From: Steroidobacter gossypii
Lineage (GTDB): Bacteria > Pseudomonadota > Gammaproteobacteria > Steroidobacterales > Steroidobacteraceae
Direction of reading: 5' to 3'
NCBI RefSeq assembly: GCF_016801985.1
Contig: NZ_JAEVLS010000004.1
Coordinates: 558,001-622,000, forward strand
Length of the DNA stretch: 64,000 bases
Made by a program: the position numbers and the translations under genes. How positions within the stretch are numbered: position 1 is the stretch's first letter; each line of letters starts with the position of its first letter. Shown here piece by piece: positions 10,528-64,000 of the stretch. The notes under the pieces are model-generated. The model did not search any database. It had not been told where the DNA came from and saw nothing but the letters and a program-made list of their open reading frames with translations.

Positions 10528-10554
10528 GGCGCGCGGCAACCCTATGGAGCGAAC

Positions 10555-12537
10555 GTGGCGACGATAGCAAAGGACATTCCCAGCTCGATCCCGTGGCGCG
10601 CGGCGCTGTTACAAAACAACATCCTGCTGACGCTGCTGGTGGTGGCGGCGATCGGCATGATGATCCTGCCGCTGTCGCCGCTCATGCTCGATCTGCTGAT
10701 CGCGGTGAATCTGAGCATGTCGGTGCTGTTGCTGCTGGTCGCGCTGTATGTCAGCTCGCCGCTCGGGCTGTCGACCTTCCCGTCGCTGCTCTTGTTCACG
10801 ACGCTGTTCCGCCTCGCGCTCAATATCGCATCGACCCGTCAGATCCTGATGCACGCGAACGCGGGCGACATCATTTTCACGTTTGGCAATCTGGTGGTGG
10901 GCGGCGACATCATCGTGGGGGTCGTGGTGTTCCTGATCATCGCGATCGTGCAGTTCGTGGTGATCGCCAAGGGTGCCGAGCGCGTGGCGGAAGTCGGTGC
11001 ACGCTTCACTTTGGACGCCATGCCCGGCAAACAGATGAGCATCGATGCGGATCTGCGCGCCGGACTGATCGACAAGGACGAAGCGCGTCAGCGCCGCAGC
11101 CGCCTGGAACGCGAAAGTCATCTATACGGCGCCATGGATGGCGCGATGAAGTTCGTCAAAGGCGATGCAATCGCCGCGCTCATCATCGCGGCTGTGAATA
11201 TTCTTGCGGGACTTGCGATCGGCACGCTGCGCAAGGGCATGGACCTGAACCACGCGTTGCAGACCTATGCGGTACTGACGATCGGCGACGCGCTGGTGTC
11301 GCAGATTCCGTCGCTGCTCGTCTCCATTTCGGCGGGCATCCTGATCACGCGCGTCGCGGATCCGAGCCGAGCGGCTATGCCCGGGCTCGGCGACGAAATT
11401 GCGGACCAGTTGAAGGTGCATCCTCGCGCGCTGCTGATCGGCAGCGCCGTGATTCTCGCGTTGATGCTGATCCCGGGCTTTCCGAAGCTGCCGTTCTTGC
11501 TGCTCGCCGGGTTGGTGGGCGCGGCCGGCTATGCGTTGCTGCCGCATCGGCGGCGTTACAAGCAGGCGGGCGATCGGCCGATGCCTGTCATGCGCCGCGA
11601 GGGCACCGAGCTGGTCAGGCCGTGGCTCGACGCCACCGATCGTTTGCTCGCCGTGCCGTTGTCGGTCGAGGTGTTTCCGACCATCGATCGTTACTTGCAA
11701 CCGGACGCGCTGGAGATCGAGCTCAAGCTGATCCGCCGGGTGCTGGAAACCGATCTCGGCGTACCGTTTCCGGGGATCGTCATGCGTCGTACGCCCGAGC
11801 TCGCGGACGGCGCCTATCGCATTTGTATTCACGAGATTCCCGCCGCGCATGGCGAGCTGCGGTTCGACCGCTCCGAGGCCAGCGAAGCGCCGGAGAAAGT
11901 GCTTACTCGCCATGTGTTGTTCGTATTGAGACAGCACGCCGACGAGTTCATCGGGATTCAGGAAACGCAGCTGCTGCTGAAACGTCTGGCCGATGAATAC
12001 CCCGACCTGGAACGCGAGCTGCAACGGAACATACCGGTGCCGCGGCTGACCGATGTGTTGAAGCGCCTGGTGCGCGAGGACATCTCGATCCGCAACCTGC
12101 GTGAGATCGCTCATGCGCTGGTCGAGTGGGCGCCGCGCGAGAAGGACACGACGCTGGTCACCGAATACGTGCGGACCAGCCTGTCGCGTTACATCTCTTA
12201 TCGGTTCGGCAATGCCGGCGCGGTGTCCGCGGTCGTGCTCCATCCGACTCTGGAAGACCGGTTGCGCCAATCGCTGCGTCAGACTTCAGCGGGCACGGTG
12301 ATGATGCTCGATCCGCAGGCGCGTCGCGAGGTCATCACCAAGCTGCGAGCCAGCTTCGCATCACGCAGCACGCCGGCGCCGGAACGCGCGCCCACGGTAT
12401 TGCTCACTTCGCTGGAGATCCGCCCGCACCTGCGCAAGCTGATCGAGCCGGAGCTCGGGCGCATCCCAGTGCTGTCTTACCAGGAGCTGGAGCCGCGCGT
12501 TCGCATCGACCCGGTCGAGTCGGTGTCGCTGAGCTGA
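10555..12537 (+). CDS. sctV: SctV major export-gate protein
   Basis: A 660-residue FlhA/YscV/LcrD-family protein. Seven to eight membrane helices (about 20-320) are followed by a cytoplasmic domain that forms a nonameric ring receiving substrate-chaperone complexes. The FHIPEP-type signature is at about 146-170 (ARFTLDAMPGKQMSIDADLR), and SQIPSLLVSISAGILITRV ends the membrane region. It starts at GTG 10555 with GGAG 6-10 bases upstream. In most Ysc-type loci sctV is in another operon near sctW; here it closes the sctD-U run, 27 bases after sctU. Confidence 0.97.
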   Translation: MATIAKDIPSSIPWRAALLQNNILLTLLVVAAIGMMILPLSPLMLDLLIAVNLSMSVLLLLVALYVSSPLGLSTFPSLLLFTTLFRLALNIASTRQILMHANAGDIIFTFGNLVVGGDIIVGVVVFLIIAIVQFVVIAKGAERVAEVGARFTLDAMPGKQMSIDADLRAGLIDKDEARQRRSRLERESHLYGAMDGAMKFVKGDAIAALIIAAVNILAGLAIGTLRKGMDLNHALQTYAVLTIGDALVSQIPSLLVSISAGILITRVADPSRAAMPGLGDEIADQLKVHPRALLIGSAVILALMLIPGFPKLPFLLLAGLVGAAGYALLPHRRRYKQAGDRPMPVMRREGTELVRPWLDATDRLLAVPLSVEVFPTIDRYLQPDALEIELKLIRRVLETDLGVPFPGIVMRRTPELADGAYRICIHEIPAAHGELRFDRSEASEAPEKVLTRHVLFVLRQHADEFIGIQETQLLLKRLADEYPDLERELQRNIPVPRLTDVLKRLVREDISIRNLREIAHALVEWAPREKDTTLVTEYVRTSLSRYISYRFGNAGAVSAVVLHPTLEDRLRQSLRQTSAGTVMMLDPQARREVITKLRASFASRSTPAPERAPTVLLTSLEIRPHLRKLIEPELGRIPVLSYQELEPRVRIDPVESVSLS

Positions 12538-43698: not shown

Positions 43699-44535
43699 CT
43701 AGCCCCGACCAGACAAGTTGGAGATAGGTTGTGAACGCAAGAATTGGCTCAGCAACCTTGCGTAAAGACTGGGCTCGTCGAGCGCGGCCAGATGCCCAGC
43801 GCCGGCAACGATTCTCAAGTACGCATTGGGCAGAGCCTCGACCATCCGTTGCGCGATGGTTCGCCGCCTCTGCGTGTCGAATTCGCCGCTCAGAACGAGC
43901 GTGCATACATCGATACAATGTAAATCTCGCATTGTGAGCGGGGCGGCCGATCGCGGACGCTCGTCCAGCAACAGATCCTGCGCCGGGTATCGAGCGGCAA
44001 TTTCCTGCAGCAGCAGGCGCGCGCCCAGCGCTGTTGTATAAAGGCGCATGAAGGGATGTTGAGACCAGCTGCGTCGGAACGCTTCGATGCCTTCGCTCCG
44101 GAGCAGCGCCCGATAGTCATCGATGGGAACTTCCTGAATGTCCGGCGTCAGTGACAATCCATCTGGGGGCGGGCCATCGAGCACCAGGCACGCGACGCGC
44201 TGGGGGTACTTCAACGCGCAACGTAGTGCGACCCGTGCGCCCTGTGACATGCCGACGATCGCAGCCTGTGAAATAGCGAGGTAATCCAGCAACCGGGCGA
44301 CGTCCTCCACGTCCCGCTCGATATCCGGCCTGCCCGAGGAAAGCCCGAAACCGCGCCGATCGAATGCAATCACTTGAAACGAGGATGCAAGTAAATGCAG
44401 CTGCGGCTGCCACATATCGAGATCGAGCGCCCAGCCGTGGATGAACACCACGGCAGCGCCTGACCCTGAGCTACGTACGCGGAGCGTTGCTCCTTCGACC
44501 TCGATGAAACGTTCGTCGCTCAGCGCCGCCCCCAC
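43699..44535 (-). CDS. Alpha/beta hydrolase
   Basis: A 278-residue alpha/beta hydrolase with oxyanion motif HGWALD, nucleophile elbow GMSQGA, acid in GEFDTQRR and His in GAGHLAALDEP. It has a cap region rich in Arg (about 130-190). Relatives include C-C bond hydrolases of meta-cleavage routes, enol-lactonases and esterases. It overlaps the MetE-like gene by 16 bases and is the last gene of the six-gene minus-strand operon. Confidence 0.85.
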   Translation of the reverse strand: MGAALSDERFIEVEGATLRVRSSGSGAAVVFIHGWALDLDMWQPQLHLLASSFQVIAFDRRGFGLSSGRPDIERDVEDVARLLDYLAISQAAIVGMSQGARVALRCALKYPQRVACLVLDGPPPDGLSLTPDIQEVPIDDYRALLRSEGIEAFRRSWSQHPFMRLYTTALGARLLLQEIAARYPAQDLLLDERPRSAAPLTMRDLHCIDVCTLVLSGEFDTQRRRTIAQRMVEALPNAYLRIVAGAGHLAALDEPSLYARLLSQFLRSQPISNLSGRG

Positions 44536-45713
44536 AATCGATCGGAGGCGATGGCCGCGCCTTCCGCCAGCGACTTCAATTTGAGATAGGCGACGTCCGG
44601 ATCCACCGGGCCGAAGCCGGCGAAGGTTCCGAACCCACAGTCGGTGCCCGCCATCACACGGTCACGGCCTACCACGTCGGCATATCGACAAAGTCGCTCG
44701 GCGACCAGTAGCGGATGTTCTATGTAATTGGTGGTCGTGCTGATGACGCCGGGGATCAGCACCTTGTCCTCCGGCAAACGCGCGTCCCGAAACACCGCCC
44801 ACTCATGCTCGTGGCGTGGATTCGCGCCTTCGATGAGCAGCGCCTGCACCTTGGCCTTGACCACGACCGGCAACAACTGCTCCAGCGGCACGTCGTGGTG
44901 ATGCGGGCCTTCGTAGTTGCCCCAGCACACGTGCATGCGCGCTCGCTCGGCAGGAACGTTGCGCAGAGCATGGTTCAACACTTCGATGTGGCGCGCGGCG
45001 CTGTTCAAAAAGTCGTTCACTGTATCGTGTCGATACATGGTGTGGCGCCCCATGGCCAGATCTGGAGCATCGATCTGCACCAGCAACCCGGCGCGGGTGA
45101 TCAACTCGTATTCGGCGCGCATCGCCTCTGCCACCGCTTCGACATACGCGTCCTGCGTGCTGTAGTAATCGTTCGGCTGGAACAGCGCGATCACGCCCGG
45201 AGAAGCGGCGTTGAGGAAGCCCTCCAAGGCAGTCGAGTCTGCGAGCGCCGCCTTGAGATTGTCGACGTCGGTCTGCGCCGGCTGCAGGTCGTTGACTCGA
45301 ATCTCAGCAACACAACGAGGCCTCGTGTACTTCGCCGTGGCGCCCGTGTCCGCCAGCCGTTTCAGGATGCGTGGAAACTCGACCAGGTCCTGGCCAGGCT
45401 CACGCGGCGTATCGCCGGCGAATCCCGTCAGCCGGTTCTTTATGTAAGTGGCATAGCTGATCTTGCTCATCTCACCGTCGCTGACCACATCCACGCCACT
45501 TGCCACCTGCCGGCGAACGGCGTCCTTCACGGCGTCTGCGATGGTTGCATGAGCGGCGGCTTCATCGAGCGATTCGCCACGCTCGCGCGCAAACAACACA
45601 TCCGTGACGGCCTGCGACCGAGGCAGACTGCCCACGAGCGTTACCAGGATCCTGTCGCGACCGGTTTCCAATTCTCTCGCCTCCGCGTACAAATACGTCC
45701 TCTGACTAGTCAA
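44520..45713 (-). CDS. MetE C-terminal-like, cobalamin-independent methyltransferase-fold protein
   Basis: A 397-residue UROD/MetE-like TIM barrel. Features are LVGSLPRSQAV near the N-terminus, SGVDVVSDGEMSKISYATY, HVCWGNYEGPHHHD and, near the end, MAGTDCGFGTFAGF; the last two supply the His, Cys and Cys expected to hold catalytic zinc. Lacking the MetE N-terminal domain, it may use another thiol or methyl donor, as the related alkyl-CoM transferases do. The start is unclear: TTG 45713 has no ribosome site, while TTG 45671 follows GGAG. It is the fifth gene of the operon. Confidence 0.75.
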   Translation of the reverse strand: MTSQRTYLYAEARELETGRDRILVTLVGSLPRSQAVTDVLFARERGESLDEAAAHATIADAVKDAVRRQVASGVDVVSDGEMSKISYATYIKNRLTGFAGDTPREPGQDLVEFPRILKRLADTGATAKYTRPRCVAEIRVNDLQPAQTDVDNLKAALADSTALEGFLNAASPGVIALFQPNDYYSTQDAYVEAVAEAMRAEYELITRAGLLVQIDAPDLAMGRHTMYRHDTVNDFLNSAARHIEVLNHALRNVPAERARMHVCWGNYEGPHHHDVPLEQLLPVVVKAKVQALLIEGANPRHEHEWAVFRDARLPEDKVLIPGVISTTTNYIEHPLLVAERLCRYADVVGRDRVMAGTDCGFGTFAGFGPVDPDVAYLKLKSLAEGAAIASDRLWGRR

Positions 45714-45735
45714 TGATCAGTAGTCATCAGTCACT

Positions 45736-46272
45736 TCATCGATACATGTTGTTGGATCGATGATCGCCAGCGAGCCACCGCTTGAGCTCGGAGTGAGCGT
45801 CGGCACGACGCGTGGCGTTGATCTTCTCCACGTCTGGATGATCGACGGTGAACTCCACGATCATGCCGTCCGGGTCGACGGCATACAGCGAGCGGCAGTA
45901 GCCGTGGTCCAGCACGAACATCTTCGGCTCGGTATACCCGGCGGCGCGTAGACGCTGCTCGATGCCCTTCTGCACGTCCGCGTCGACTTTCAAGGCCACG
46001 TGATGAAACGGCGTCTCCGGCATTTTCGGCCCGAACATCTCCTGGTCCTCGGGACGCGCGAACTGAAAGAACGCGAGCGCGCCGCCGTCGCCGATACCGA
46101 AGAACAAATGACAGTAGGTGCGCTCGGCGCCGAACAGCTCATCGGACTCGCACCACGTCGCCTGCAGCGGCAGGCCGATGATGTCTTCGTAGAACTGGCG
46201 TGTCGCTTCCAGATTCCTGGACACGTACGCGGTGTGATGCAATCGTGTCGGCAGCTTCTGAACAGTGGCCAT
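45736..46272 (-). CDS. VOC-superfamily metalloprotein
   Basis: A 178-residue vicinal-oxygen-chelate protein (glyoxalase/extradiol dioxygenase superfamily). Metal ligands are visible as His in LHHTAYVSRN, His in FHHVALKV and Glu in GMIVEFTVDH. The two beta-alpha-beta-beta-beta modules are complete. The reaction (dioxygenase, isomerase or lyase) cannot be decided. ATG 46272 follows AGGAG. It lies 25 bases after the TonB receptor gene in the same operon. Confidence 0.85.
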   Translation of the reverse strand: MATVQKLPTRLHHTAYVSRNLEATRQFYEDIIGLPLQATWCESDELFGAERTYCHLFFGIGDGGALAFFQFARPEDQEMFGPKMPETPFHHVALKVDADVQKGIEQRLRAAGYTEPKMFVLDHGYCRSLYAVDPDGMIVEFTVDHPDVEKINATRRADAHSELKRWLAGDHRSNNMYR

Positions 46273-46297
46273 GATGTGCTCCTGTAGCCCCATGCAT

Positions 46298-48517
46298 TCA
46301 AAAACGGTAGGTCAGGTCCACGCCCCAGCGTCGCGGCAGGGCCTTGAACACGAAGTTGTTGGTGTAACCTGGGTTTGGGAAGAACTGCGGACCGGGCGAC
46401 CATTCGGCGTTGTACTCTTCGTCGGTCAGATTCTTGGCCCACACCGTGGCGCTCCACGCGCCGCCCTCGAGCCCCAGCCTCATATTCACCAGCTCCACCG
46501 GATCGCGCTCGGTGAAATTGTCCGGATAGAACCAGGTGGGGCCGATGGCCTCGAGGTCGGTGCGCACGAACATGCTTAGCGCCTCGCCGAGCGGGCGTCG
46601 ATACTGCAGCCCGAGATTGGCGCTGTACTCGGAGACCAATGGCGCCTGGTTGCCCACATCGGTCGGTGCGCGACTGGAGTCTTTGATCTCGCTATCGGTA
46701 TAGCCGAGCCCGAGATACGCTTCGAAGCCGGTTGCGAGCAGCGCTTTGAGTTCCAACTCGACGCCTTGATAATCCACCCGCTCGAGGTTGCCCAGGTTCT
46801 GGGTGCTGGTGGTGGGATCGAAGACGAAGAAGTACGAGCCTTCGGCGCGCGTGTGATAGAGATTGAGACTGGCGCTCAACCGACGGTCCAGGAATTCGGC
46901 CTTGGCGCCGAGCTCATAAGTATCCGCAGTCTCGGCGTCGAACAGATCCTCGACCCCGGCGATGCCTGCGGAACCTACGCCCGTCTGATTGAACCCGCCG
47001 CTGCGAAAACCGCGACTGAAGCCGGCGTACAGCGTCGAGTTGTCGCTCGGCTTGTAGCGCAATGTGACTTTCGGCTGCCATTCGTCCCAGGTCTGCTCGC
47101 GCACCTGTCCGGGGAAGGCGATGCCCACCAGCGGGCCGGGAATGAATTCGGCCGGCGTCTCGGTCGTATTCTCGCGCTCGTCGCGGTCGTAGCGCATGGC
47201 CAGGGACATTTCCAGGCGCGATGTGAGATCGAAGTCGACGTTGCCGAACACTGCCCAGGCGAAGTTGTCCTGCGCGTCCGCCAGAAACGTGAACTGGGGA
47301 TTGAACAGCGGCAACGGCCGTCGCCGTACTTGCGGCACCATGCCCGTGCCCAGATCGAACACATTGCCCGTGGATATGAAGCGATCGGTCGTGATGCCGT
47401 AGACACCGGCGATCCAACGCACTCGCTTGCCGGCCGGCGAAGTGAAGCGTAACTCCTGGCTCACGGCTGCCACGTCCAGATACTGATGCTGCGCCTGATC
47501 GGAGCGGAAGAACTGAAACAACACCGACTCCTCGATCGGCAGGAAGTTGAACTGGTCGCCGGTGAGGATCTCCTTGAGCGTGTCATAGGAAGTGACTGAC
47601 GTGAGCGTGCCCACGCCGGTTTCATAGTCCATTTTCAACGAGACGCCGTACATATCGCGCTCGTTCACGCCCGGGTTGTTCACGCGGACCGGCAGGCTCG
47701 TATCGTTGACGCTCCCGGTGATGTTGAAGTACAGCGCCTGCGTGTCCACCTGTGACGAGCTCAATCGCAGGTCGGCGGTGAACTCATCCGAAGGCTCCCA
47801 CAACAGTCGCACGCGAGTGGATACATCCCGGAACGGATCGGCTTCCTCGCCCAGGAAGGCATTGTCGATGTAGCCGTCCGTTTCGAAATACGACGCCGCC
47901 ACGCGATACTTCAGCGTGTCCGAGATGGGGCCGCTCATACTGCCGCGCAGCCGCTGTCCGGGCCCGGACTCGTAGCCTGCCGTGATGCTGCTTTCGAACT
48001 CGTCGGTGGGCCGCCGTGTGTTCACAATGATCGCACCGCCGATGGCATTGCGGCCGTAGAGTGCGCCCTGCGGCCCCTTCAGCACCTGGATGCTTTCGAT
48101 ATCCACCAGTTCCTGGTTGAACTGCGACGGATTGACCATCAGCACGCCGTCGATCAGCACGGCCACCGATGGCTCGCTGTTGCGCGCTTGCGAGATGCCG
48201 CGCACCGTCACGAACGAGGTGCCCTGATTCTGAGTCTGGACCAGGCTCATGTTGGGCGTGAGATCGATGAAGTCCTGCGGCCGCTCGATGCCGGCCGCTT
48301 CGATGTCCGCCGCGGTGAACACGTTGATGGCCACGGGAACATCGAGCACCGCCTCGTCGCGTTTGCGCGCGGTGACGATCACTTCTTCGAGACTGCCGTC
48401 GCCTGCCAGGTTCTGCGACTGTCCCTGGTCCTGAGCTGGCGCATCGAACGGCAGAAGACACAACGCCGCCGACACGCCAGCCAGTACCAGCCCCCACCCC
48501 CACTTGTACGTCGTCAT
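46298..48517 (-). CDS. TonB-dependent outer-membrane receptor
   Basis: A 739-residue receptor: signal peptide (1-29), TonB box EEVIVTARKR, plug domain (about 50-165; VRGISQARNSEPSVAVLIDG, LKGPQGALYGRNAIGGAI) and a 22-strand-type barrel ending in the aromatic RWGVDLTYRF. It belongs to the sphingomonad/Caulobacter-like group that imports organic nutrients rather than siderophores only. Being inside a CoA-transferase/lyase operon suggests it takes up the substrate of that pathway. Confidence 0.92.
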   Translation of the reverse strand: MTTYKWGWGLVLAGVSAALCLLPFDAPAQDQGQSQNLAGDGSLEEVIVTARKRDEAVLDVPVAINVFTAADIEAAGIERPQDFIDLTPNMSLVQTQNQGTSFVTVRGISQARNSEPSVAVLIDGVLMVNPSQFNQELVDIESIQVLKGPQGALYGRNAIGGAIIVNTRRPTDEFESSITAGYESGPGQRLRGSMSGPISDTLKYRVAASYFETDGYIDNAFLGEEADPFRDVSTRVRLLWEPSDEFTADLRLSSSQVDTQALYFNITGSVNDTSLPVRVNNPGVNERDMYGVSLKMDYETGVGTLTSVTSYDTLKEILTGDQFNFLPIEESVLFQFFRSDQAQHQYLDVAAVSQELRFTSPAGKRVRWIAGVYGITTDRFISTGNVFDLGTGMVPQVRRRPLPLFNPQFTFLADAQDNFAWAVFGNVDFDLTSRLEMSLAMRYDRDERENTTETPAEFIPGPLVGIAFPGQVREQTWDEWQPKVTLRYKPSDNSTLYAGFSRGFRSGGFNQTGVGSAGIAGVEDLFDAETADTYELGAKAEFLDRRLSASLNLYHTRAEGSYFFVFDPTTSTQNLGNLERVDYQGVELELKALLATGFEAYLGLGYTDSEIKDSSRAPTDVGNQAPLVSEYSANLGLQYRRPLGEALSMFVRTDLEAIGPTWFYPDNFTERDPVELVNMRLGLEGGAWSATVWAKNLTDEEYNAEWSPGPQFFPNPGYTNNFVFKALPRRWGVDLTYRF

Positions 48518-48531
48518 GGTTCGCTCCCCAG

Positions 48532-49698
48532 CTATCTCGTCCACCCCTCCGAGATTTCAGGCCAGCCCTCGCGTGCGGCGAGAGCTTCGCGAATCGAGGC
48601 GCCGTGCTGATCGAGCAGCGGCGCCGAAATCACCCGATCGAACCTGGCGCCATCGAATTGCACGGCGGGGCGGACGGCCCATTTGCCGCCGCTCGCCGCT
48701 TCGACCGGCACGATCAGCCCCAGGTGGCGCACCTGCGCATCGTCGATCACCTGGTCGATGCGGTTGATGGGCGCGAACGGCACATCGTTGTGCTCGAGCC
48801 TTTCTACCCAGTGCTGTCGCGGATGACGTGAAAACAATGCGTCGAGCTCCGCACCGAGCGCTTCGTAGTTGTCGATGCGGCCTTGCCGCGTGCGGAAGCG
48901 CTCGTCAGTGCTCAAACGCTCGCCGTCCAGCGCGGTCGTCAGGCCCTCCCAGAACTTCTCCATGGAGGAGAGATGAATCGCGATGAGCTCGCCATCCGCC
49001 GTGCGCAGGATGTACGCCTGCGCGAGACGCGGCCGATCACTGGACTTCGGAACTTCGTTCAGCGCGAAGAAGGCGGCGAATGGCTCCACTGCGAAATGCG
49101 CCATGGCTTCGAGCATGGAGACTTCGACATGTCGCCCGCGCCCGGTGCGCGCGCGCTCGATCAAAGCGCCGAGGATTCCGAATGCGCCGTAAATGCCGGT
49201 GATGGCGTCGGCAAGCGCCGGCCCAAGGAACCGCGGGCGATCGTGGTCGACGACCACGCTCAGAAAGCCACTCAGCGCCTGGGCCACCGAGTCGTAACTC
49301 GGCCGATCGGCGTATGGCCCGCTCGAGCCGAAGCCGCTGATCGAGCAATACACCAGACGTGGATTCAACTCGTGCAAGCGCGGCGCGCCGGCGCCCAGGC
49401 GTTCGGCGGTACCAGGGCGGAAGTTCTGGATATAAACATCCGCATTGCTGATGAGGCTGTCGAAGGCTTCGCGATCCGCCGGTTGATGCAGATCGAGAGC
49501 GATGCTTCGCTTGTTTCTGTTGTATGCCTGGAAATGCGGCGAGAACTGTCCGCCCTGATAGCTCCGATAGGGATCGCCCGTGGGGCTTTCGACCTTGATC
49601 ACATCCGCGCCGAGATCCGCCAGCATCATGCCGGCGCACGGGCCGGTAATGAACGTGCCCTGCTCGACGATGCGGATACCGGAGAGGACGGATTGCAT
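48532..49698 (-). CDS. CaiB/BaiF family CoA-transferase
   Basis: A 388-residue class III CoA-transferase. Family segments: RIVEQGTFITGPCAGMMLADLGADVIKVE, NRNKRSIALDL, PGTAERLGAG, LVYCSISGFG and HVEVSMLEAMAHF, the last near the Asp that forms the acyl-enzyme. These enzymes move CoA between carboxylic acids by an ordered mechanism. It begins 9 bases after the lyase-like gene and probably makes that enzyme's CoA thioester substrate. Confidence 0.92.
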   Translation of the reverse strand: MQSVLSGIRIVEQGTFITGPCAGMMLADLGADVIKVESPTGDPYRSYQGGQFSPHFQAYNRNKRSIALDLHQPADREAFDSLISNADVYIQNFRPGTAERLGAGAPRLHELNPRLVYCSISGFGSSGPYADRPSYDSVAQALSGFLSVVVDHDRPRFLGPALADAITGIYGAFGILGALIERARTGRGRHVEVSMLEAMAHFAVEPFAAFFALNEVPKSSDRPRLAQAYILRTADGELIAIHLSSMEKFWEGLTTALDGERLSTDERFRTRQGRIDNYEALGAELDALFSRHPRQHWVERLEHNDVPFAPINRIDQVIDDAQVRHLGLIVPVEAASGGKWAVRPAVQFDGARFDRVISAPLLDQHGASIREALAAREGWPEISEGWTR

Positions 49699-49707
49699 GA
49701 TGCCCCT

Positions 49708-50514
49708 CTATCGATCGCTCCCCACGAACCCTTCGGGCTTCGGCCCGTCGTACTCGACGGCCAGCGCGCCCGCATGCGACAGCACGAAGCCGATCGGACG
49801 CGAGCGCTCTTCCAACAGATGTGCGATGAGGCTGGCGGTGCGCGCGAGCAAGGGCGCTCCTTTGAGCGCCAGCAATGGATAGCCCGCATCGAGCAGCGTG
49901 CACGCGATTGCGCCGGATACATTCATGGCGAGTGGCTTGCCCGTGATCTCCGGCAACAGGTCGTCGATGATGCTGGCAGCTTCGATATGCCGACCACTCG
50001 TGCCCGCTTGCCTTGCAACTTCCAGGAGTCGTCGCGCGCGAGGGTCGTAGTCCTTGTGCAGTGGATGGCCGTAACCGGGAATGGCTCGACGGCTCTCTTG
50101 GTAGTCGCGGATGATTTCGCTCGCGGCATCTCGCATCGAAGTCGCTGCTGCTCGTGCAATCACCTCATGCAACAAACGGCCGGCCTCCTCAGCGGCCCCG
50201 AGAATGACCGAGCCACAACCCAACAAGCCCGCCGCCACAGCGCCTTGTAACGCCTCCGGCGCGGCGGCAAGTGTCATGCGGCCGACCTGCACGCTGGGTA
50301 CCAGGCCGTGTTCGGCGATCGCCACCAGCACCGCGTCGAGCACGCGCCTTTGCGCTTCGTTCGGCAAGTCGCCGGTCACGAGCAACCAGACATGGTCGGT
50401 GAAAGAGATGCGCCCGATCAGTTCCTCGCACAGGTCGCGACCCCGCACGAGGATCGTCTCCGCGTTCGACGTGGAGATCGCCGAAGCCCGATTGGCCTGC
50501 GCGCCGATCTTCAT
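49708..50514 (-). CDS. Citrate synthase-family citryl-CoA lyase-like protein
   Basis: A 268-residue short citrate synthase-fold protein. It keeps catalytic His in the GYGHPLHKDYDPR segment and the ISTSNAETILVRGRDLCEELIG start seen in citryl-CoA lyases of this family; it lacks the larger small-domain of true citrate synthase (about 400 residues). It probably cleaves (or forms) a 3-hydroxy-dicarboxyl-CoA by a retro-Claisen/aldol reaction. First gene of the six-gene operon, divergent from the IclR gene. Confidence 0.85.
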   Translation of the reverse strand: MKIGAQANRASAISTSNAETILVRGRDLCEELIGRISFTDHVWLLVTGDLPNEAQRRVLDAVLVAIAEHGLVPSVQVGRMTLAAAPEALQGAVAAGLLGCGSVILGAAEEAGRLLHEVIARAAATSMRDAASEIIRDYQESRRAIPGYGHPLHKDYDPRARRLLEVARQAGTSGRHIEAASIIDDLLPEITGKPLAMNVSGAIACTLLDAGYPLLALKGAPLLARTASLIAHLLEERSRPIGFVLSHAGALAVEYDGPKPEGFVGSDR

Positions 50515-50549: not shown

Positions 50550-50562
50550 TTCGGATATCGAA
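50550..50562. promoter_or_regulatory. TTCG-N5-CGAA operator 1
   Basis: TTCGGATATCGAA. First of three matching palindromes between the citryl-CoA lyase-like gene and the IclR gene; it lies 36 bases upstream of the lyase ATG, in its promoter or leader region. Confidence 0.65.
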
Positions 50563-50568: not shown

Positions 50569-50581
50569 TTCGTCATACGAA
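50569..50581. promoter_or_regulatory. TTCG-N5-CGAA operator 2
   Basis: TTCGTCATACGAA, flanked by A and T so that the arms extend to ATTCG/CGAAT. Centre-to-centre distance to operator 1 is 19 bases, close to two helical turns, favouring binding on one DNA face. Confidence 0.65.
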
Positions 50582-50631
50582 TCATGCTGGATCCGCCCCT
50601 CGAGGGCTGTCAATCGCGATTGCCGCCGTTT

Positions 50632-50644: not shown

Positions 50645-50657
50645 AAGGGCTGTGGCC

Positions 50658-51479
50658 ATGAAGAAATCCAGTGATGTCGCCGCGGGAAACTCAGCGCGTC
50701 GCGAAGCCATGGGTGGCCTCGCAAAAGGTTTGGAGGTCATCCGCGCCTTTTCCCACGATTCGCCTTCTCTGACGCTCTCCGAAATCGCGGGCCGAGCCGG
50801 CTTGCCAGCCGCTACCGCTCGGCGCTGCTTGCTGACGCTTTCTGAACAGGGCTACGTCATGCAATCGGGCCGCAACTTCCTGCTGCGCCCCAAGGTGCTC
50901 GAACTGGGCGCCGCCTATCTCGACTCGATGAACATCGAGATGCTTACCCGAACCTATCTGGAAGATCTCGCCAGTCAGACCGGCGACTCCGCAGCGTTGA
51001 CGGTGCTGGACGGCGCTCACATCGTCTACGTCGCCCGGGCGTCGGTGCGTACGTTGATGCGACTGGAGGCGCATGTCGGCAGCCGCCTCCCCGCCTATCC
51101 CACCTCGCTGGGCCGCGTGCTGCTTGCCGGGCTGTCGCCGGAACGCCTCGACCGATATTTCGAGCAGGCAGAGATCACGGCGCTGACCGAGCGCACCGTC
51201 ACCGACAAGGCTCGGTTACGCGCGTTGATCGAAGAGTGCCGACGCGTCGGCTATTCCTCCGTCGAAGACGAACTCGCCTACGGCGTCGTCGCTGTCGCCG
51301 TGCCCGTTTTCGACAAAACCCGTCGCGTCGTCGCTGCGCTCAACAGCTCCAGTCATTCGAAGAAGACCACGCGCGCGCGGCTTGCCAAGGAGCGGGTGCC
51401 GCTGCTGCAAACCATCAGCTCGCAGATCTCCCGCGAACTGCAGCGAGTGCCGGGCTTGTCGCTCAGCGCGCAGACTTGA
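50658..51479 (+). CDS. IclR-family transcriptional regulator
   Basis: A 273-residue regulator. The N-terminal winged helix (about 20-80; LAKGLEVIRAFSH, LTLSEIAGRAGLPAATARRCLLTL) and the C-terminal effector-binding domain (95-260; LPAYPTSLGRVLLAG, VDDELAYG-like VEDELAYGVVAVAVPV) match PcaR/PobR-type IclR proteins, which answer to aromatic or organic acid effectors. ATG 50658 with AAGGG upstream is used; GTG 50652 is possible. It most likely controls the divergent operon through the three TTCG-N5-CGAA sites. Confidence 0.92.
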   Translation: MKKSSDVAAGNSARREAMGGLAKGLEVIRAFSHDSPSLTLSEIAGRAGLPAATARRCLLTLSEQGYVMQSGRNFLLRPKVLELGAAYLDSMNIEMLTRTYLEDLASQTGDSAALTVLDGAHIVYVARASVRTLMRLEAHVGSRLPAYPTSLGRVLLAGLSPERLDRYFEQAEITALTERTVTDKARLRALIEECRRVGYSSVEDELAYGVVAVAVPVFDKTRRVVAALNSSSHSKKTTRARLAKERVPLLQTISSQISRELQRVPGLSLSAQT

Positions 51480-57462: not shown

Positions 57463-58527
57463 TCAAGCGATCTTCAGCGCCGGCTGAAGCTTGAGATACC
57501 CGTCAGCCATCCGCTCCAGCGACACCGGTTTGATCTTGCTCGCTTGCCCCGCCGACCCAAAGGCCAGAAAGCGAGACTTACAAATATCCCGCGCCGCCGA
57601 AGTCGCCTGCGCCAAGAACTTCCGCGGATCGAACTCACTGCGATCGGTATTCATGAGCCGGCGCATCGCGCCCGTCATGGCGATGCGTATGTCGGTATCG
57701 ATGTTGACCTTGCGCACGCCATTGCGTATCCCCTGCTGGATCTGCTCCACCGGCACGCCGTAAGTTTCCTTGAACTCACCGCCATGCTCGCGAATGATCG
57801 CCAGCCACTCCTGCGGCACGGACGAAGACCCATGCATCACCAGGTGCGTGTTCGGGATCCGCTGGTGAATCTCACGAATCCGGTCGATCGCGAGAATGTC
57901 GCCCGTCGGCCGACGTGAAAACTTGTAAGCGCCATGCGAAGTGCCGATCGCTATGGCCAAAGCATCGACTCCCGTCTGCTCGACAAATTCGGCGCACTGA
58001 TCCGGATCGGTAAGCATCTGCTCGTGAGTCAGCTTGCCCTCCGCCCCAACGCCATCCTCCTCACCCGCCAGGCCCGACTCCAGCGAGCCCAGGCAGCCGA
58101 GCTCGCCTTCCACCGACACGCCCACCGAATGCGCCATCTCCACGACTTTGGCCGTCACCCGCGTGTTGTACTCATAGCTGGCGGGCGTCTTCATGTCCTC
58201 ACGCAGCGAGCCATCCATCATCACACTGGTGAAGCCGGAGCGAATCGACGCCTGACACACGGCTGGGCTCGCACCGTGATCCTGATGTAGCACGATCGGA
58301 ATGTGCGGCCACGTTTCCGCCGCCGCGAGGACGATGTGGTGAAGGAACGCCTCACCCGCATATTTACGCGCGCCGGCGGAAACCTGCAGGATAGCCGGGC
58401 TGTCGGTTTCATCCGCCGCCCGCATGATGGCGAGCACTTGTTCCATATTGTTGACATTGAACGCGGGCATACCATAGCTGTGCTCCGCTGCGTGATCGAG
58501 CAACTGACGCAGTGACACCAGGCTCAT
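57463..58527 (-). CDS. cbbA: Fructose-bisphosphate aldolase, class II (Calvin subtype)
   Basis: A 354-residue zinc aldolase that joins DHAP with GAP (or erythrose-4-phosphate in the Calvin cycle). Zinc/catalytic motifs: [19 protein letters not shown] (catalytic Asp, Zn His), [24 protein letters not shown] and [12 protein letters not shown]. Length matches CbbA-type class II enzymes (345-360). The frame is open to 58746, but ATG 58527 overlaps the transketolase stop (ATGA) and gives the normal start [11 protein letters not shown]. Confidence 0.96.
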
Positions 58528-60599
58528 GTGGCCCCCTTTTGATCTGCCGTTGAGTCCGCTTCCGCATTCGCACGCGGGAGCACCGATCTCACCGCGGCCG
58601 CCACCCGCTCGGCTGTAAATTCGAAGTAGCGCATCAAATCCGCGGCTGGCGCCGATTCGCCGAAGCGATCGATGCCGACCACCGCACCGGAGCGACCGAC
58701 ATATTTGCGCCACAGATCGGGGACGCCGGCTTCCACGGCGACACATGGCAGGCTCGACGGCAACACCTGTTGGCGATATTCCGAATCCTGCCGATCGAAA
58801 ACGTTGGTGGAAGGCATCGAGACGACGCGCACCGGCACGCCTTCGCTCAACAATGCCTTCTGCGCTTCGACCGCAAGCGCGATTTCGGATCCCGTCGCAA
58901 TGACGACTGCGCGAGGCTCGACCTCAGGTTCCACGAGAACGTATCCACCGCGCCGGATGTTGTCGATCGCCTCCAGACTCCGCGTTTGAAAAGGCAAGTT
59001 CTGGCGACTGAAGACCAGGCTGCTCGGCCCATCCGCGCGCTCGATTGCAGCGGCCCAGGCTGCGAGCGACTCCACCGTGTCGCACGGCCGCCAGACATCC
59101 ATATTAGGTATCACGCGCAACGTCGCCAGATGCTCGATCGGCTGATGCGTCGGACCATCCTCGCCGAGCCCGATCGAGTCGTGTGTGAATACGAAGATGC
59201 AGCGGATGCGCATCAGCGCCGCCATCCGCAGTCCGTTCCGACAGTAATCCGAGAACGTCAAGAACGTGCCGCCATAGGGAATGAAGCCACCATGCAACGC
59301 TAATCCATTCATGATCGCGGCCATGCCGAACTCACGCACGCCGTAGTAGAGATAATTTCCTCCGCTACTGCTGGTGATTGCCTGGGAGCCAGACCACAGC
59401 GTGAGATTCGAACCCGCGAGGTCGGCGGATCCGCCAATCAGCTCCGGCAACACCGGCGCGATGCCTTCGATGGCCTCTTGTGAAGCCTTGCGCGTCGCCA
59501 TGGTCGCCGCCTTGGCATGCGTTCGCGTCATCAACCTGCGAACGTGGTCGCCGAAGTCCGCTGGCAGTTCGCCTCGCATGCGCCGCGCGAATTCCTGACG
59601 CAGCTCCGGATGTGACTTTCCATACTCGGCCAACGTATGCCGCCACGCTGCCTCGGCGGCGGCGCCCGCGGCCCGGGCGTCCCAGCTCTCATATATATGA
59701 GGCGGGATGTCGAAAGGCGGATGCTCCCAGCCGAGCGCGGCACGCGTAGCGGCAATCTCCTTGTCACCCAACGGAGCGCCGTGTGCATCATGTGTGCCCG
59801 CCTTGTTGGGCGAGCCGTGCGCGATGACGGTCTTGCAACAGATCAAGGTCGGCTTGTCGACGCGCGCCTTTGCGGCGCGAATCGCATTATCGATTGCGGC
59901 GCTATCGTGCCCATCGACCTCGATCACATGCCAGCCATAACTATTGAAACGTCCGCGCGTGTCGTCGGTGAACCAGCCCGAAACAGGACCGTCGATGGAA
60001 ATGCCGTTGTCGTCATAGAACGCGATCAGCTTGCCCAGTCCCAGCGTTCCCGCGAGCGAGCAAGCCTCGTGCGAGATGCCTTCCATCATGCAGCCGTCGC
60101 CCAGGAACACATAGGTGTAGTGATCGATGACCTCCTGACCGGGCCGATTGAACTGCGCCGCGAGCACTTTTTCGGCGATGGCCATGCCAACCGCATTGGC
60201 AATGCCCTGTCCGAGCGGCCCGGTGGTGGTCTCCACTCCCGCAGTGACGCCATACTCGGGATGTCCTGGCGTTCGGGAATGCAACTGACGGAAGCGCTGC
60301 AGCTGTTGCAGCGGCAAGTCATAGCCCGTCAGATGCAGCAGCGCATACAGCAACATTGAACCGTGACCGTTGGACAACACAAAGCGATCACGATTGAACC
60401 ACTGGGGGTTGGCCGGGTTGTGCCGCAGATGACGTTGCCACAAGACTTCGGCGATCTCGGCCATGCCCATGGGCATGCCTGGATGCCCCGAGTTGGCCTT
60501 CTGAACCGCATCCATCGCAAGTACGCGCAACACGTTGATGGCGTCGCGCCGAGCTGGGGAGTCTTGGGACGTTGGCCGCATCTTGATTTCGGCGCTCAT
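58524..60599 (-). CDS. cbbT: Transketolase
   Basis: A 691-residue TPP enzyme of the Calvin and pentose phosphate pathways. Motifs: [15 protein letters not shown], the TPP/Mg loop [18 protein letters not shown] through YDDN, the pyrimidine domain (about 355-530; [19 protein letters not shown]), and a C-terminal domain with [12 protein letters not shown]. Full family length. ATG 60599 overlaps the cbbZ stop; ATG 60623 upstream is an alternative. Confidence 0.97.
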
Positions 60600-61309
60600 G
60601 CGATGGCCCTCAACGCGTGACAACCCTGCTGCGCCCCGACGCTCAGCTCGAGAATGTCCTGAAATCGGCTGACGACTCCATCAGGCTGAAGTTGTGCCAG
60701 CGGCACACCGCCGTGATATCCATAGTCCACCGCCACGACGCGGCAGCCGGCCGCTTGAGCAGCGCCGACATCAGCGCCCGAGTCACCCACCAGAAGCGTG
60801 CGTGACGGGCTCACGCCCGCGTCGTTGCATGCCGCGAGCAGCATGTTGGGGCTTGGCTTTCTGTCCTCCAGACGATCGGCGCACAACACCGACGCAAAGA
60901 ACCCGCTCAGGCCCGCCGATCGCAACAACGGAAGCGTGAACCTGCTCTCCTTGTTGGTGACGCAGAACAACTTCCGCCCCAGTCCGTGCAGCGCTCGCAA
61001 TGTTTGCTCCACGCCCGCATAGACGCGGCTGTGCTGAAACACTCGTTGCCCGTAGAGATTCCGAAACAATGCATTGGCCGCGGCATGCTGCGCTGGATCC
61101 GATTTCACATGGCTCGCCTCGACGACTTTGGCCACGAACTCATCGATGCCTCCGCCGATGAAGGCGGCGACGCGCTCTTCGGGCAGCGGCCGTCCGCCCA
61201 GGATGAGCAGCATCATGTTGGCCGCCGATGTCAGATCGGGCGCGGTGTCGACCAGCGTGCCGTCCAGGTCGAAGCAGACGGCGTCGATGCAATCGATGAG
61301 TTTGGGCAT
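60596..61309 (-). CDS. cbbZ: Phosphoglycolate phosphatase
   Basis: A 237-residue HAD hydrolase with [14 protein letters not shown] (nucleophile Asp14, general acid Asp16), motif [12 protein letters not shown], motif III Lys in [10 protein letters not shown] and motif [15 protein letters not shown]. It removes phosphate from 2-phosphoglycolate, the toxic product of RuBisCO oxygenation, which fits its place in a cbb operon. The long open frame to 61909 is antisense shadow; ATG 61309 gives the family length. Confidence 0.92.
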
Positions 61310-61335
61310 GTCGGGCCTCCGCGTGACAGAGATTC

Positions 61336-62259
61336 TTAGAACGTCGGCTCCAGCACCGCGCTGCTCGAGCGATGCGTGCGTCGCGCCAGCGACTCCCTGC
61401 GCCGTTCGATCAGTCGCAGAATCATCGGCGTGAAGATCAGCTGCATGGCCAGATCCATCTTGCCGCCCGGACACACGATGGTGTTCGGACGCGTCATGAA
61501 CGAGTCGTGCAGCATGGTCAGCAGATACGGAAAATCGATGCCCGACGGATTGGCGAACCGGATCACCAGGAACGATTCTTCGGGCGTCGGAATGAACCGC
61601 GCGATGAACGGATCGGACGTGTCCACCATCGGCACGCGCTGGAAATTGATATGCGTGCGTGAGAACTGCGGGCAGATGTAATGCACGTAATCGTGCATTC
61701 GTCGCAGAATGGTGTCGGCCACCGCCTCGGTGGAATAGCCGCGCGTTGCGCGATCCCGATGCAGTTTCTGGATCCACTCGAGGTTGATGACCGGCACCAC
61801 GCCGATCAGCAGATCGACGTGCTTCCAGATCTGGATCTCCTCGTGAGCCGCTGCGCCGTGCAGGCCTTCGTAGAACAGCAGGTCGGTCTGCTCGGGCAGG
61901 TCCTCCCATTCGGTGAACGTGCCTGGCTTTTGACCGTAGGGCGCCGCCTCGTGATCGTCGTGCAGATATTTGCGCCGACGACCCCGGCCGCCCTCGCCAT
62001 AGCTTCTGAACAGCCCGTCGAGCTCGGCGAACAGGTTCGCGTCCGGACCGAAGTGACTGAACGTGTAGTCGCCGCTCGCGACGGCTTCGGCCATCTTCTG
62101 CTTCATGCCGGCGCGATCGTAGCGATGGAAGCTGTCGCCCTCGATGAAGGCGGCAGTGATGGCCTCGCGACGAAAGATCTGCTCGAAGGTCCGCATGACC
62201 GACGTCGTACCCGCCCCGGATGACCCCGTAACAGCAATGATCGGGTGTGTCGCTGACAT
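61336..62259 (-). CDS. cbbP: Phosphoribulokinase (bacterial class I)
   Basis: A 307-residue kinase that makes ribulose-1,5-bisphosphate from Ru5P and ATP, one of the two reactions unique to the Calvin cycle. P-loop GSSGAGTTS (12-20), IEGDSFHRYDRAGMK, FYEGLHGAA (Walker B area) and VPVINLEWIQKLHRD are typical of the octameric proteobacterial form. ATG 62259 lies 10 bases after cbbF. The open extension to 62388 is not used. Confidence 0.97.
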   Translation of the reverse strand: MSATHPIIAVTGSSGAGTTSVMRTFEQIFRREAITAAFIEGDSFHRYDRAGMKQKMAEAVASGDYTFSHFGPDANLFAELDGLFRSYGEGGRGRRRKYLHDDHEAAPYGQKPGTFTEWEDLPEQTDLLFYEGLHGAAAHEEIQIWKHVDLLIGVVPVINLEWIQKLHRDRATRGYSTEAVADTILRRMHDYVHYICPQFSRTHINFQRVPMVDTSDPFIARFIPTPEESFLVIRFANPSGIDFPYLLTMLHDSFMTRPNTIVCPGGKMDLAMQLIFTPMILRLIERRRESLARRTHRSSSAVLEPTF

Positions 62260-62269
62260 GGAGACCTGC

Positions 62270-63331
62270 CTAGGCTGGGCTGCTGAAGATGCTGCGTGAG
62301 CCGAACAACGGCGCCTTGAATTCGAAATCGTTGTACTCGCGGTGATAGCGCTCGATGCGCTCCACCTCCGCGCGCGTTCCGAAAACAAATCCGATGCGCT
62401 GATGCAGACTCTCCGGCTTCACCGTCATCACCGGCTCGCGCCCCGTGCTGGCACGGCCGCCAGCCTGCTCGATCAGGAAGCTGATCGGATTGGCTTCGTA
62501 GAGCAGGCGCAGTCGCCCCGCTTTGGCGAGGTCCTTGCGGTCGCGTGGATACATGTACACGCCTCCTCGCATGAGGATGCGATGCGTGTCCGCAACCACC
62601 GCCGCAATCCAACGCATGTTGAAATCACGGCCGCGGGGGCCAGCGGCGCCCTCCTGACATTCGCGCACAAAGCGCTTGATCGGCTGCTCCCAATGCCGCG
62701 AATTCGAAGCGTTGATGGCGAACTCGGACGTGGTCTCGGGAATGCGCAGATCCGGATGCGTCAAGATGAACTCGCCGATCTCCCGATCCAGCGTGAAGCC
62801 ATGCACGCCCCGTCCCGTCGTCAGCACCAGCATGGTCGAGGGCCCATAGATGGCGTAACCGGCGCACACCTGCTCGGTGCCCGGCTGAAGAAAGTCCTCG
62901 ACCGCGGGCTCCGTGACGCCGTCTGGACAGCGCAGCACCGAGAAGATGCTGCCAACCGCCATGTTCACGTCCACGTTGGAGGAACCATCGAGAGGATCGA
63001 AGAGCAACAGATACTGGCCGCGCGGATATTCCTTCGGAATCAGATACGGTTGCTCCATTTCTTCGGAGACCATGCCCGCCAGCTGCCCACCCCACTCGTT
63101 GGTGCGAATGAAAATCTCGTTGGCGAGCACATCGAGCTTGGTCTGCTTCTCGCCTTGCACGTTGACCGTATCGGCTTCTCCGAGCGCGCCGGACAGCGCG
63201 CCCTTGCCCATCAAGGTCGCGATGCGCTTGCATGCCAGCCGAATGTCGTTCACCAGCGCGGTAAAGTTGCCGGTGGCATGCTCGTGACGGCGCTGTTCCT
63301 CGATCAGGAACCGGGTCAACGTTCTGGTCAT
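62270..63331 (-). CDS. cbbF: Fructose-1,6-bisphosphatase class I
   Basis: A 353-residue class I FBPase. Metal site [14 protein letters not shown], substrate region [13 protein letters not shown] and [21 protein letters not shown] are all present. It supplies fructose-6-phosphate in the Calvin cycle (possibly also acting in gluconeogenesis). ATG 63331 overlaps the cbbX stop by 4 bases. Confidence 0.96.
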
Positions 63332-64000
63332 GTCTGCAATTCCCCTTCTCGTTGTGTCTCCACGGGCGCCGGCTCCGCGAACACGCGGCTGGCTCGGATG
63401 TCCTCGGCTTCGATGGTCATCAGATCCCGCTTGGCCAGCGACGCAGTCCTTTTGGCGAACAGACGGCTCGCCTGCCGCAAACGGGCGCGATCGAGCGCGT
63501 TGCGAACCGACCTGGCGTTCGCGAAGTGCGGCTGCTTCTGGCGACGCTCGATGTATTCGCGCAGCGTCGATCTCGCGTCCGGGCTCAGCATGTACTGCAT
63601 TTGTTCGAGCATCAGCTGGGCGATCGCCATCAGTTCTTCGGAGCTGTAGTCCGGGAAGGCGATGTGATGCGCGATGCGCGAAGACATGCCCGGGTTGCTG
63701 CGGAAGAAACGATCCATGCGGTCTTCGTAGCCGGCCAGGATCACCACCAGATCGTCACGATGGTTCTCCATCTCCTGCAGCAGGATCTCGATAGCTTCCT
63801 GGCCATAGTCGCGCTCGTTCTCCGGTCGATACAGGTAGTAGGCCTCGTCGATGAACAGCACTCCGCCCATCGCACGTTTGAGCACCTCTCGGGTCTTCGG
63901 CGCGGTATGACCAATGTACTGGCCGACGAGATCGTCACGGGTCACTGCAACCATGTGCCCCTTACGCACGTAGCCGAGGTGATGCAGGATCTCCGCCATT
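63328..64000 (-). CDS. cbbX: CbbX red-type RuBisCO activase (partial)
   Basis: About 224 C-terminal residues of an AAA+ protein; the frame runs off the right edge and the Walker A region (expected just before [15 protein letters not shown]) is outside. Visible are the pore-loop region [14 protein letters not shown], Walker [14 protein letters not shown], sensor and arginine-finger region [17 protein letters not shown] and a C-terminal helical lid. CbbX pulls the RuBisCO large-subunit C-terminus to remove inhibitory sugar phosphates and occurs with red-type form I RuBisCO (form IC/ID). The ATG at 63999 is internal, not the real start. Confidence 0.95.

Follow-up and report, generated by a model that had tools for sequence, protein, structure and literature searches.

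A conserved IclR-linked operon of Steroidobacter gossypii and its possible role in the breakdown of methoxylated aromatic rings

Six closely packed genes in a 64 000 nucleotide stretch of the Steroidobacter gossypii genome (contig NZ_JAEVLS010000004.1, positions 558 001 to 622 000; this whole stretch, with its own numbering, is here called the window) raise the question of what compound they break down and by what chemistry. A reading made from the letters alone (hereafter the sequence-only reading) took them for an inducible catabolic operon and a candidate new pathway. Here, we conclude that the operon is a real, conserved and well-supported unit, and that it probably encodes a pathway for aromatic ring cleavage, with an unusual end that depends on coenzyme A (CoA) and probable MetE-type handling of methyl groups.

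In the list of open reading frames (ORFs) of the window, the six genes run head to tail on the minus strand from 50514 to 43699, and this list, together with Pfam matches, confirmed the places and families originally given to them. With the divergent regulator gene, they are:

49708..50514, minus strand: CCL, gene 1 of the operon, a member of the short citrate-synthase-fold 'citryl-CoA lyase' (CCL) subfamily (PF00285, NF004868)
48532..49698, minus strand: CaiB, family III CoA transferase (PF02515)
46298..48544, minus strand: TonB-dependent outer-membrane receptor (TBDR; PF07715 and PF00593)
45736..46293, likely start 46275, minus strand: VOC, single-domain vicinal-oxygen-chelate (VOC) protein (PF00903)
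44520..45713, minus strand: MetE1, short MetE-fold zinc protein without a folate domain (PF01717)
43699..44535, minus strand: ABH, alpha/beta hydrolase (ABH; PF00561)
50652..51479, plus strand: divergent IclR-family regulator, PcaR/PcaU/PobR-like (PF01614 and PF09339)

CCL and CaiB are separated by 9 nt, VOC and MetE1 by 22 nt, and TBDR and VOC by 4 or 22 nt according to the start chosen. MetE1 and ABH overlap by 16 nt, and CaiB and TBDR by 13 nt provided that the GTG start is used. The genome as a whole is 7.1 Mb in 32 contigs.

Conservation and control of the gene set

Gene neighbourhoods were compared in the best 80 of 352 VOC relatives from named genomes (loci carry L numbers). Genes were called with our own script, which picked the antisense frame at times, and were assigned by identity and coverage limits that we set, weaker matches being dropped. 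Across the 80 loci, CCL was found in 45, CaiB in 44, TBDR in 42, MetE1 in 41, IclR in 40, a second MetE-like gene (MetE2) in 30 and ABH in 28, followed by WrbA (22), an intradiol dioxygenase (7), LigB-type genes (4) and an FMN reductase (4). CCL and CaiB were both near VOC in 43/80, and these CCL-CaiB loci include TBDR in 35, IclR in 35, MetE1 in 31, MetE2 in 25, ABH in 25 and WrbA in 21. At least one MetE-like gene was present in 36/43 and both in 20/43. IclR, MetE2, a quinone reductase and the intradiol dioxygenase, which lay outside the view of the sequence-only reading, belong to a wider core.

In a same-genus relative (L031), IclR, CCL, CaiB, TBDR, VOC, MetE1 and ABH stand in the window order with an FMN reductase downstream. 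VOC of the same-genus relative Peristeroidobacter soli JW-3 is 89% identical to the window copy, and all seven genes are present in this cultured strain (L059). The loci, whose hosts span Steroidobacteraceae, Sphingomonadales and relatives of Azospirillum, differ in gene order and orientation; the genes have thus stayed linked through rearrangement.

Among 296 genomes of the order, with E-value limits set by us and weaker matches dropped, CCL was present in 13, CaiB in 12, VOC in 16 and MetE1 in 66. CCL and VOC shared 12 genomes (hypergeometric p 3e-17, a value that, like the shuffles described below, ignores phylogeny), CCL and CaiB 12, and MetE1 and CCL 13. Linkage within less than 15 kb was seen for CCL-CaiB in 11/12, CCL-VOC in 8/12, VOC-MetE1 in 13/16 and CCL-MetE1 in 11/13. 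These counts are not mutually independent, as loci are shared between sets (L059 is the L031 contig and L060 is L036) and the 296 genomes overlap them. The sequence-only reading had itself named independent assortment as what would speak against a common pathway. The neighbourhood data from the 80 loci and 296 genomes instead show genes grouped far beyond chance, and independent assortment of the genes is rejected.

Two other recurrences were seen in the loci. VOC homologues 68–71% identical occur in Myxococcus (L086, L091, L109) and Archangium (L082, L128), with no other pathway genes in the 20 kb examined. A protein of approximately 390–500 aa recurs beside the clusters (8/80 loci, cluster c10; for example L157:6146-7309); the copies viewed have the motif FRFYDNRQKYL, and the two copies scanned had no Pfam or NCBIfam match at the limits used.

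The regulator scored 271.8 bits against TIGR02431, the PcaR/PcaU/PobR model, a near miss of the 284.75 cut-off. PcaR/PcaU/PobR regulators characteristically have palindromic operators repeated within the intergenic region, and a likeness to this is found in the 137 bp between CCL and IclR, which holds three of the four TTCG-N5-CGAA copies in the whole window:

50550..50562, no strand: operator copy 1, TTCG-N5-CGAA, paired with copy 2 at 19 bp spacing
50569..50581, no strand: operator copy 2, TTCG-N5-CGAA, completing the exact tandem pair that is unique in the genome
50632..50644, no strand: operator copy 3, adjoining the IclR start
50584..50613, minus strand: putative operon promoter (TTGACA 50608-50613, CAGCAT 50584-50589)

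When 17 hand-picked intergenic regions, all in the same head-to-head order, were compared, each had at least two TTCG-N5-CGAA copies (42 exact copies in all and 49 at ≤1 mismatch), while mononucleotide shuffles of the regions gave a mean of 0.02 exact copies. The operon-proximal pair was spaced by 19 bp in 17/17. In the window genome, the exact tandem pair has a single occurrence, at the operon, and at ≤1 mismatch the pair was found in 10/13 relatives, in nine of them at this operon. In G006 the pair is on another contig, and the operon contig ends inside CCL. G012 and G244 each have one extra one-mismatch tandem site, G003 and G033 each have one match to the control pattern, and none was found in the three genomes of genus g21 among the 13 searched. 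In G016, where TBDR comes first, the tandem pair sits between IclR and TBDR. A wider regulon was rejected, as the exact tandem is found only at the operon and ≤2 mismatches gave eight forward matches versus four for the reversed-pattern control. By eye, a TTGAC box is present in all 17 aligned regions; the consensus promoter scan did not list this promoter, and the promoter/terminator scan was no better than shuffles (1 versus 1.7; 6 versus 5.2). The conserved operator set supports a dedicated operon predicted to be inducible under IclR control, and so backs what had earlier been surmised about induction.

Predicted functions of the encoded proteins

The best structural match of VOC is homogentisate 1,2-dioxygenase 9u42, which has the same fold and shares six His/Tyr/Glu residues with it in the alignment. 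Alignments were of 36 or 34 VOC sequences, hand-chosen for spread, and H14, H56, H92, H124, Y131 and E141 are invariant in 36/36; we take these to be a 2-His-1-Glu metal site with His and Tyr catalytic residues. Position 71 is Gln, where 9u42 has Glu. The pattern H-x5,7-[LIVMF]-Y-x2-[DENTA]-P-x-[GP]-x2,3-E was found in 80/82 VOC copies and in 0/1034 other ORFs of the loci, a comparison that gives no test against other VOC families. What we take to be the full PROSITE extradiol dioxygenase pattern, with [GNTIV] two residues before the His, fits 1/82 copies, and with that first residue relaxed it fits 80/82. A methylmalonyl-CoA-epimerase-like identity, of which an H, Q, H, E pattern is a trait, was dropped because VOC matches 9u42 and carries the H124/Y131 pattern. 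The VIA list does not exclude families that are absent from it. The fold match and shared residues support the ring cleavage that the sequence-only reading had associated with VOC, and we predict that VOC is a ring-cleaving dioxygenase of a substituted hydroquinone. Open-licence PubMed Central yielded no paper on 9U42 or an Acinetobacter VOC-fold homogentisate dioxygenase, and the available parts of papers on an estradiol VOC (PMC7793797) and on separate Caulobacter genes (PMC3751524) were of no help here.

ABH matches PF00561 with 95.7 bits. Its best NCBIfam models are of the enol-lactonase/PcaD and MenH types, none shown at its cut-off, and its best solved relatives are arylesterases. It is predicted to be a hydrolase of an ester or of a ring-fission product.

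MetE1 matches PF01717 with 55.1 bits, and its AlphaFold 2 model (predicted local distance difference test score 83.2) matches MetE and 3rpd. In alignments hand-chosen for spread (23 or 18 MetE1 and 13 MetE2 sequences), H261, C263, E295, C359 and D215 of MetE1 are invariant in 23/23, and MetE-type zinc ligands and the Asp are invariant in 13/13 MetE2; by analogy with MetE, H261, C263, E295 and C359 are presumably the zinc ligands. A folate domain was not found in the MetE1 and MetE2 proteins scanned, and MetE1 misses every methionine synthase NCBIfam cut-off listed, the best being 84.9 bits of 406. The window genome has one MetE1 match and also carries metH (1788 bits), so MetE1 should not be required for making methionine, and a housekeeping methionine synthase role is unlikely. 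The short MetE catalytic barrel with zinc-type and Asp residues is shared with the core, folate-independent methionine synthases described in the available part of PMC7857596; the proteins studied here differ from those in missing the NCBIfam cut-offs and in their catabolic gene context. The available part of a paper on betaine methyltransferase (PMC12366255) was of no help. The possible methyl-handling role previously suggested for MetE1 finds support, and the protein is predicted to be a thiol-dependent demethylase or methyltransferase.

A gene annotated 'uroporphyrinogen decarboxylase family' beside CCL on an Aminobacter plasmid is MetE2, with 71% identity to a reference copy and as much as 76% to other copies. 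MetE1 relatives of approximately 55–62% identity were also seen in another recurring catabolic cluster (L037-L044 and, on a Ruegeria conchae plasmid, L056), which in L056 comprises a LacI regulator, histidinol dehydrogenase, ester cyclases, a short-chain dehydrogenase/reductase, an alpha/beta hydrolase and RraA. As this cluster is quite different, MetE1 alone is no marker of the pathway.

CCL matches PF00285 (88.8 bits) and exceeds the cut-off of the NF004868 subfamily (313.7 versus 193). Among solved structures, citryl-CoA lyase 6hxp (E 3.9e-40), which we take to be from Hydrogenobacter, is its closest relative. CCL is like the Hydrogenobacter citryl-CoA lyase/ATP-citrate lyase module in domain and length and unlike it in the catalytic Asp. 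In 29 homologues hand-chosen for spread, His 68 and His 149 are invariant, but the Asp of the NVD motif, present in 6hxp, is found in 0/29 (Ser in 15, including the window copy, Asn in 13 and Ala in one). This loss lowers the case for a plain citryl-CoA lyase, and the reaction may differ from plain citryl-CoA cleavage. CaiB matches PF02515 with 366.9 bits (cut-off 23.3) and reaches no NCBIfam equivalog cut-off. At L163, and by eye at L161, L162 and L164, a PaaK-like acyl-CoA ligase is present and CaiB was not found; this suggests that the CaiB step is simply the activation of an acid. CaiB is predicted to provide CoA activation of a ring-fission acid and CCL a retro-Claisen C-C cleavage of the resulting thioester. 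The sequence-only reading had proposed CoA transfer and then retro-Claisen cleavage of a hydroxy-dicarboxylate; the activation and C-C cleavage are supported, and a plain hydroxy-dicarboxylyl-CoA lyase has become less certain.

The two genes are also found apart from the rest. On a Burkholderia glumae plasmid (L170, 7101-14630), an intradiol dioxygenase that is 64% identical to that of a soil locus, an Asp-less CCL, an MhpA-like FAD hydroxylase, CaiB, LeuCD and a hydroxypyruvate-isomerase-like protein are encoded in one run. The CCL-CaiB module can thus serve other ring compounds, which points to a wider use.

A candidate substrate and pathway

The genes that accompany the core give clues to the substrate. 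A quinone reductase is encoded in 25/43 CCL-CaiB loci and in 26/80 VOC loci (22 WrbA and four of the FMN type, none both); the one WrbA copy scanned was above its cut-off, and the other type is FMN_red. The intradiol dioxygenase is in 7/80 loci, four of which have CCL. The four loci with LigB-type genes are L062, L096, L110 and L124, and the gene at L062 is a gallate dioxygenase above cut-off that accompanies CCL-CaiB; LigB-type enzymes also adjoin CCL-CaiB at L054, L055 and L169, where VOC was not found. Neither LigAB nor a gallate dioxygenase is in the window operon. In a genome of the same family, L157 contains MetE2, CCL, CaiB, a PcaF thiolase above cut-off, a CoA-transferase pair, an iron alcohol dehydrogenase, a PcpA-like 2,6-disubstituted-hydroquinone dioxygenase (match to 4huz, E 8e-122), ABH and MetE1. 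L158 is like it by eye, with an intradiol enzyme in addition. The syringate O-demethylase DesA was found above cut-off at L066 (with VOC, MetE2 and TBDR) and L072 (with VOC and MetE1), and at L165 a VanA_C Rieske protein adjoins VOC. The gene families and their context together suggest that the operon cleaves the ring of a hydroquinone or polyphenol, probably a methoxylated one, with the quinone reductase, methoxyl and hydroquinone genes indicating phenols that go through a quinone/hydroquinone stage.

From these observations we infer a substrate, its reactions and their order. The pathway would be IclR-controlled and act on a ring of the p-hydroquinone or trihydroxybenzene type, probably methoxylated in the syringyl pattern, with 2,6-dimethoxyhydroquinone or its quinone the likeliest substrate, and would end in CoA activation and retro-Claisen cleavage. 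We give this a probability of about 0.4. Uptake would be aided by TBDR, and a quinone form would first be reduced by a WrbA or FMN-type quinone reductase. VOC would cut 2,6-dimethoxyhydroquinone between C1 and C2 (C-OH/C-OCH3), yielding the methyl ester of 2-methoxymaleylacetate, which ABH would hydrolyse. MetE1, elsewhere with MetE2, would then transfer the methyl of the enol ether to a thiol, for example homocysteine, leaving 2,4-dioxoadipate. CaiB would form its CoA thioester, with activation at the far carboxyl, and CCL would cleave beside the hydrated ketone to give acetyl-CoA and oxaloacetate (a C4 keto acid), the same products as those of citryl-CoA lyase. 2,4-Dioxoadipate would also result if the fully demethylated 1,2,3,5-tetrahydroxybenzene underwent intradiol cleavage, which would explain the intradiol enzyme in some clusters. 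The chemistry in its most specific form is doubtful: that MetE-family zinc enzymes O-demethylate 2,6-dimethoxyhydroquinone or the benzoquinone, with methyl transfer to homocysteine, and that an Asp-less CCL hydrolytically splits a β-ketoacyl-CoA into acetyl-CoA and oxaloacetate, with neither an aldolase nor 3-oxoadipate involved.

Several observations weigh against the proposed pathway. The second MetE-like gene, WrbA and FMN reductase are absent from the window operon; MetE2 was not found in the window genome, and its WrbA homologues (59% and 40%) are elsewhere, none near the operon. The linkage has exceptions: VOC and CCL are unlinked in 4/12 genomes, some of which contig breaks may explain; VOC was without other pathway genes in 18/80 loci at the limits used, some of which end at a contig edge (at the edge of one, L069, lies a MetE1 fragment); no MetE-like gene was seen in the examined stretches of 7/43 CCL-CaiB loci (L062, L099, L106, L120-L122 and L124); MetE or VOC was not found in the B. 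glumae stretch; and on an Agrobacterium deltaense plasmid (L168) CCL and IclR are present, but CaiB or a dioxygenase was not found nearby. The methoxyl evidence is weaker than it first appears. Neither CCL nor CaiB is seen at L066 and L072, which connects the methoxyl evidence to VOC and MetE and not directly to the operon as a whole; at L165, CCL is on another contig of that genome. The iron alcohol dehydrogenase of L157 was read by us as a maleylacetate reductase, a name that the NCBIfam scan did not give. To these are added the missing Asp of CCL and the receptor, which is unexplained for so small a substrate.

Other explanations share parts of this evidence. It is rather unlikely that MetE1 and MetE2 are methionine synthases or methyl-transfer helpers that take up methyls freed elsewhere, by DesA/LigM or VanA-type O-demethylases, and do not demethylate the substrate themselves. 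The invariant MetE-type zinc and Asp residues would suit such a role, as would a Novosphingobium pentaromativorans MetE1 relative (51%) near an aminomethyltransferase, methylenetetrahydrofolate reductase, purU and ligA, and core methionine synthases take non-folate methyl donors according to the available part of PMC7857596. This is countered by the lack of a folate domain, the best score of 84.9 of 406 bits, the metH already in the genome and the two different MetE-like genes in 20/43 CCL-CaiB loci. Unlikely too is a pathway for non-methoxylated polyphenols, such as those of the phloroglucinol or hydroxyquinol type, in which the MetE-like barrel performs another thiol-dependent reaction. Epoxyalkane:coenzyme M transferase is an example of such a barrel, and the B. 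glumae module, the PcaF and CoA-transferase genes of L157, the seven CCL-CaiB loci without a MetE-like gene and the DesA loci without CCL-CaiB are all in keeping with it. However, MetE1 or MetE2 is present in 36/43 CCL-CaiB loci, MetE2 adjoins CCL on the Aminobacter plasmid, and O-demethylase-type genes adjoin VOC.

We also regard as unlikely a branch of syringate, 3-O-methylgallate and gallate breakdown, in which VOC would cleave a catechol-type ring (e.g. 3-O-methylgallate), ABH would take the methyl ester, and CaiB and CCL would replace the aldolase acting on the citrate-like 4-carboxy-4-hydroxy-2-oxoadipate. DesA near VOC and a MetE-like gene at L066 and L072, the LigB-type genes of 4/80 loci including the L062 gallate dioxygenase with CCL-CaiB, and LigA and a LigC-like gene (our name) adjoining a Niveispirillum cluster all speak for it, but VOC is structurally nearest to a hydroquinone-type (homogentisate) enzyme, a quinone reductase (26/80 loci) is needless for gallate and the operon has no hydratase. 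At L124, LigA-LigB-LigC genes precede CCL, and this points the opposite way from the rest of the counter-evidence. That the operon serves to import and degrade a bulky molecule of the quinone or lipid-like kind, ubiquinone or a lignan for example, is highly improbable. The receptor in 35/43 CCL-CaiB loci, from which the sequence-only reading drew a bulky or scarce substrate, and the quinone reductases would fit, and two MetE-like genes would suit two methoxyl groups. But TRAP or branched-chain-amino-acid (Liv)-type ABC transporter genes lie alongside the clusters of rhizobial and Aminobacter plasmids, which weakens the bulky-substrate idea, a receptor was not seen in the examined stretches of 8/43 loci and no side-chain-degrading gene is among the six. 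The coherent operon, ring cleavage, a possible methyl role, and CoA activation followed by C-C cleavage thus survive from the sequence-only reading, and the bulky substrate does not.

Relation to known pathways and significance

The nearest analogues in the literature are a fungal route for methoxyhydroquinone and a bacterial cluster for acetosyringone. The fungal dioxygenase MhdA has a fold that differs from that of VOC. In the fungal breakdown of methoxyhydroquinone by MhdA and OmeA, as far as it is set out in the available part of PMC8336404, a hydroquinone-type dioxygenase yields a methyl ester and an esterase gene is its neighbour; VOC and ABH would be the counterpart. There, MhdA is annotated as homogentisate 1,2-dioxygenase and is larger than VOC (55.5 kDa), the ring-fission product is believed to undergo reduction ahead of the esterase step, the route ends in 3-oxoadipate, and CaiB, CCL, MetE and TBDR are not mentioned. 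The asd cluster for acetosyringone in Pseudomonas rhizophila AS1 combines a VOC protein with two alpha/beta hydrolases for a dimethoxylated ring (PMC12911418, available part). It differs in having an FAD mono-oxygenase for the first step, and CaiB, CCL, MetE and TBDR are not named in that part, which also reports that AsdA, the first enzyme, turns 2,4,6-trichlorophenol into 2,6-dichlorohydroquinone. The PcpA-type 2,6-dichlorohydroquinone/maleylacetate/3-oxoadipate pathway meets the present gene set at L157, where its PcpA-like dioxygenase, iron alcohol dehydrogenase, CoA-transferase pair and PcaF join MetE2, CCL, CaiB and MetE1. The window operon has none of these additions, and maleylacetate reductase, PcaIJ and PcaF are not among its genes, the rest of the genome not having been searched for them.

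A fungal (di)methoxyhydroquinone dioxygenase (Kato 2024) is cited in the available part of PMC12915361, and 2,6-dimethoxyhydroquinone is listed among the products of a consortium in that of PMC10269927. A description of this gene set, or of a bacterial 2,6-dimethoxyhydroquinone pathway, was not found in searches of the open-licence PubMed Central literature, a scope that leaves subscription literature and preprints outside. Within it, the earlier view that no described pathway combines the six genes holds.

Elsewhere in the window, 4243-12537 on the plus strand carries genes for export resembling type III secretion (EscN-type ATPase C-terminal domain, FlhB/YscU and FHIPEP families). Transketolase, fructose-1,6-bisphosphatase and an AAA protein are encoded on the minus strand at 58524-63999, in what looks like a Calvin-cycle-type operon that runs past the window end.

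Lignin is a source of syringyl-type methoxylated quinones and hydroquinones. Given a conserved, dedicated gene set and a unique operator, the question of what this operon degrades can be put to the test in a cultured strain. Should the MetE-like step be as proposed, it would be a new O-demethylation that needs neither cobalamin nor folate, and the proposed CCL step, if true, would be new chemistry for the citrate-synthase fold. Either would help to annotate the short 'citryl-CoA lyase' and 'methionine synthase II' genes that have been named by fold alone. One plant methoxyl group would then feed methionine, and the ring would feed the citrate cycle directly.

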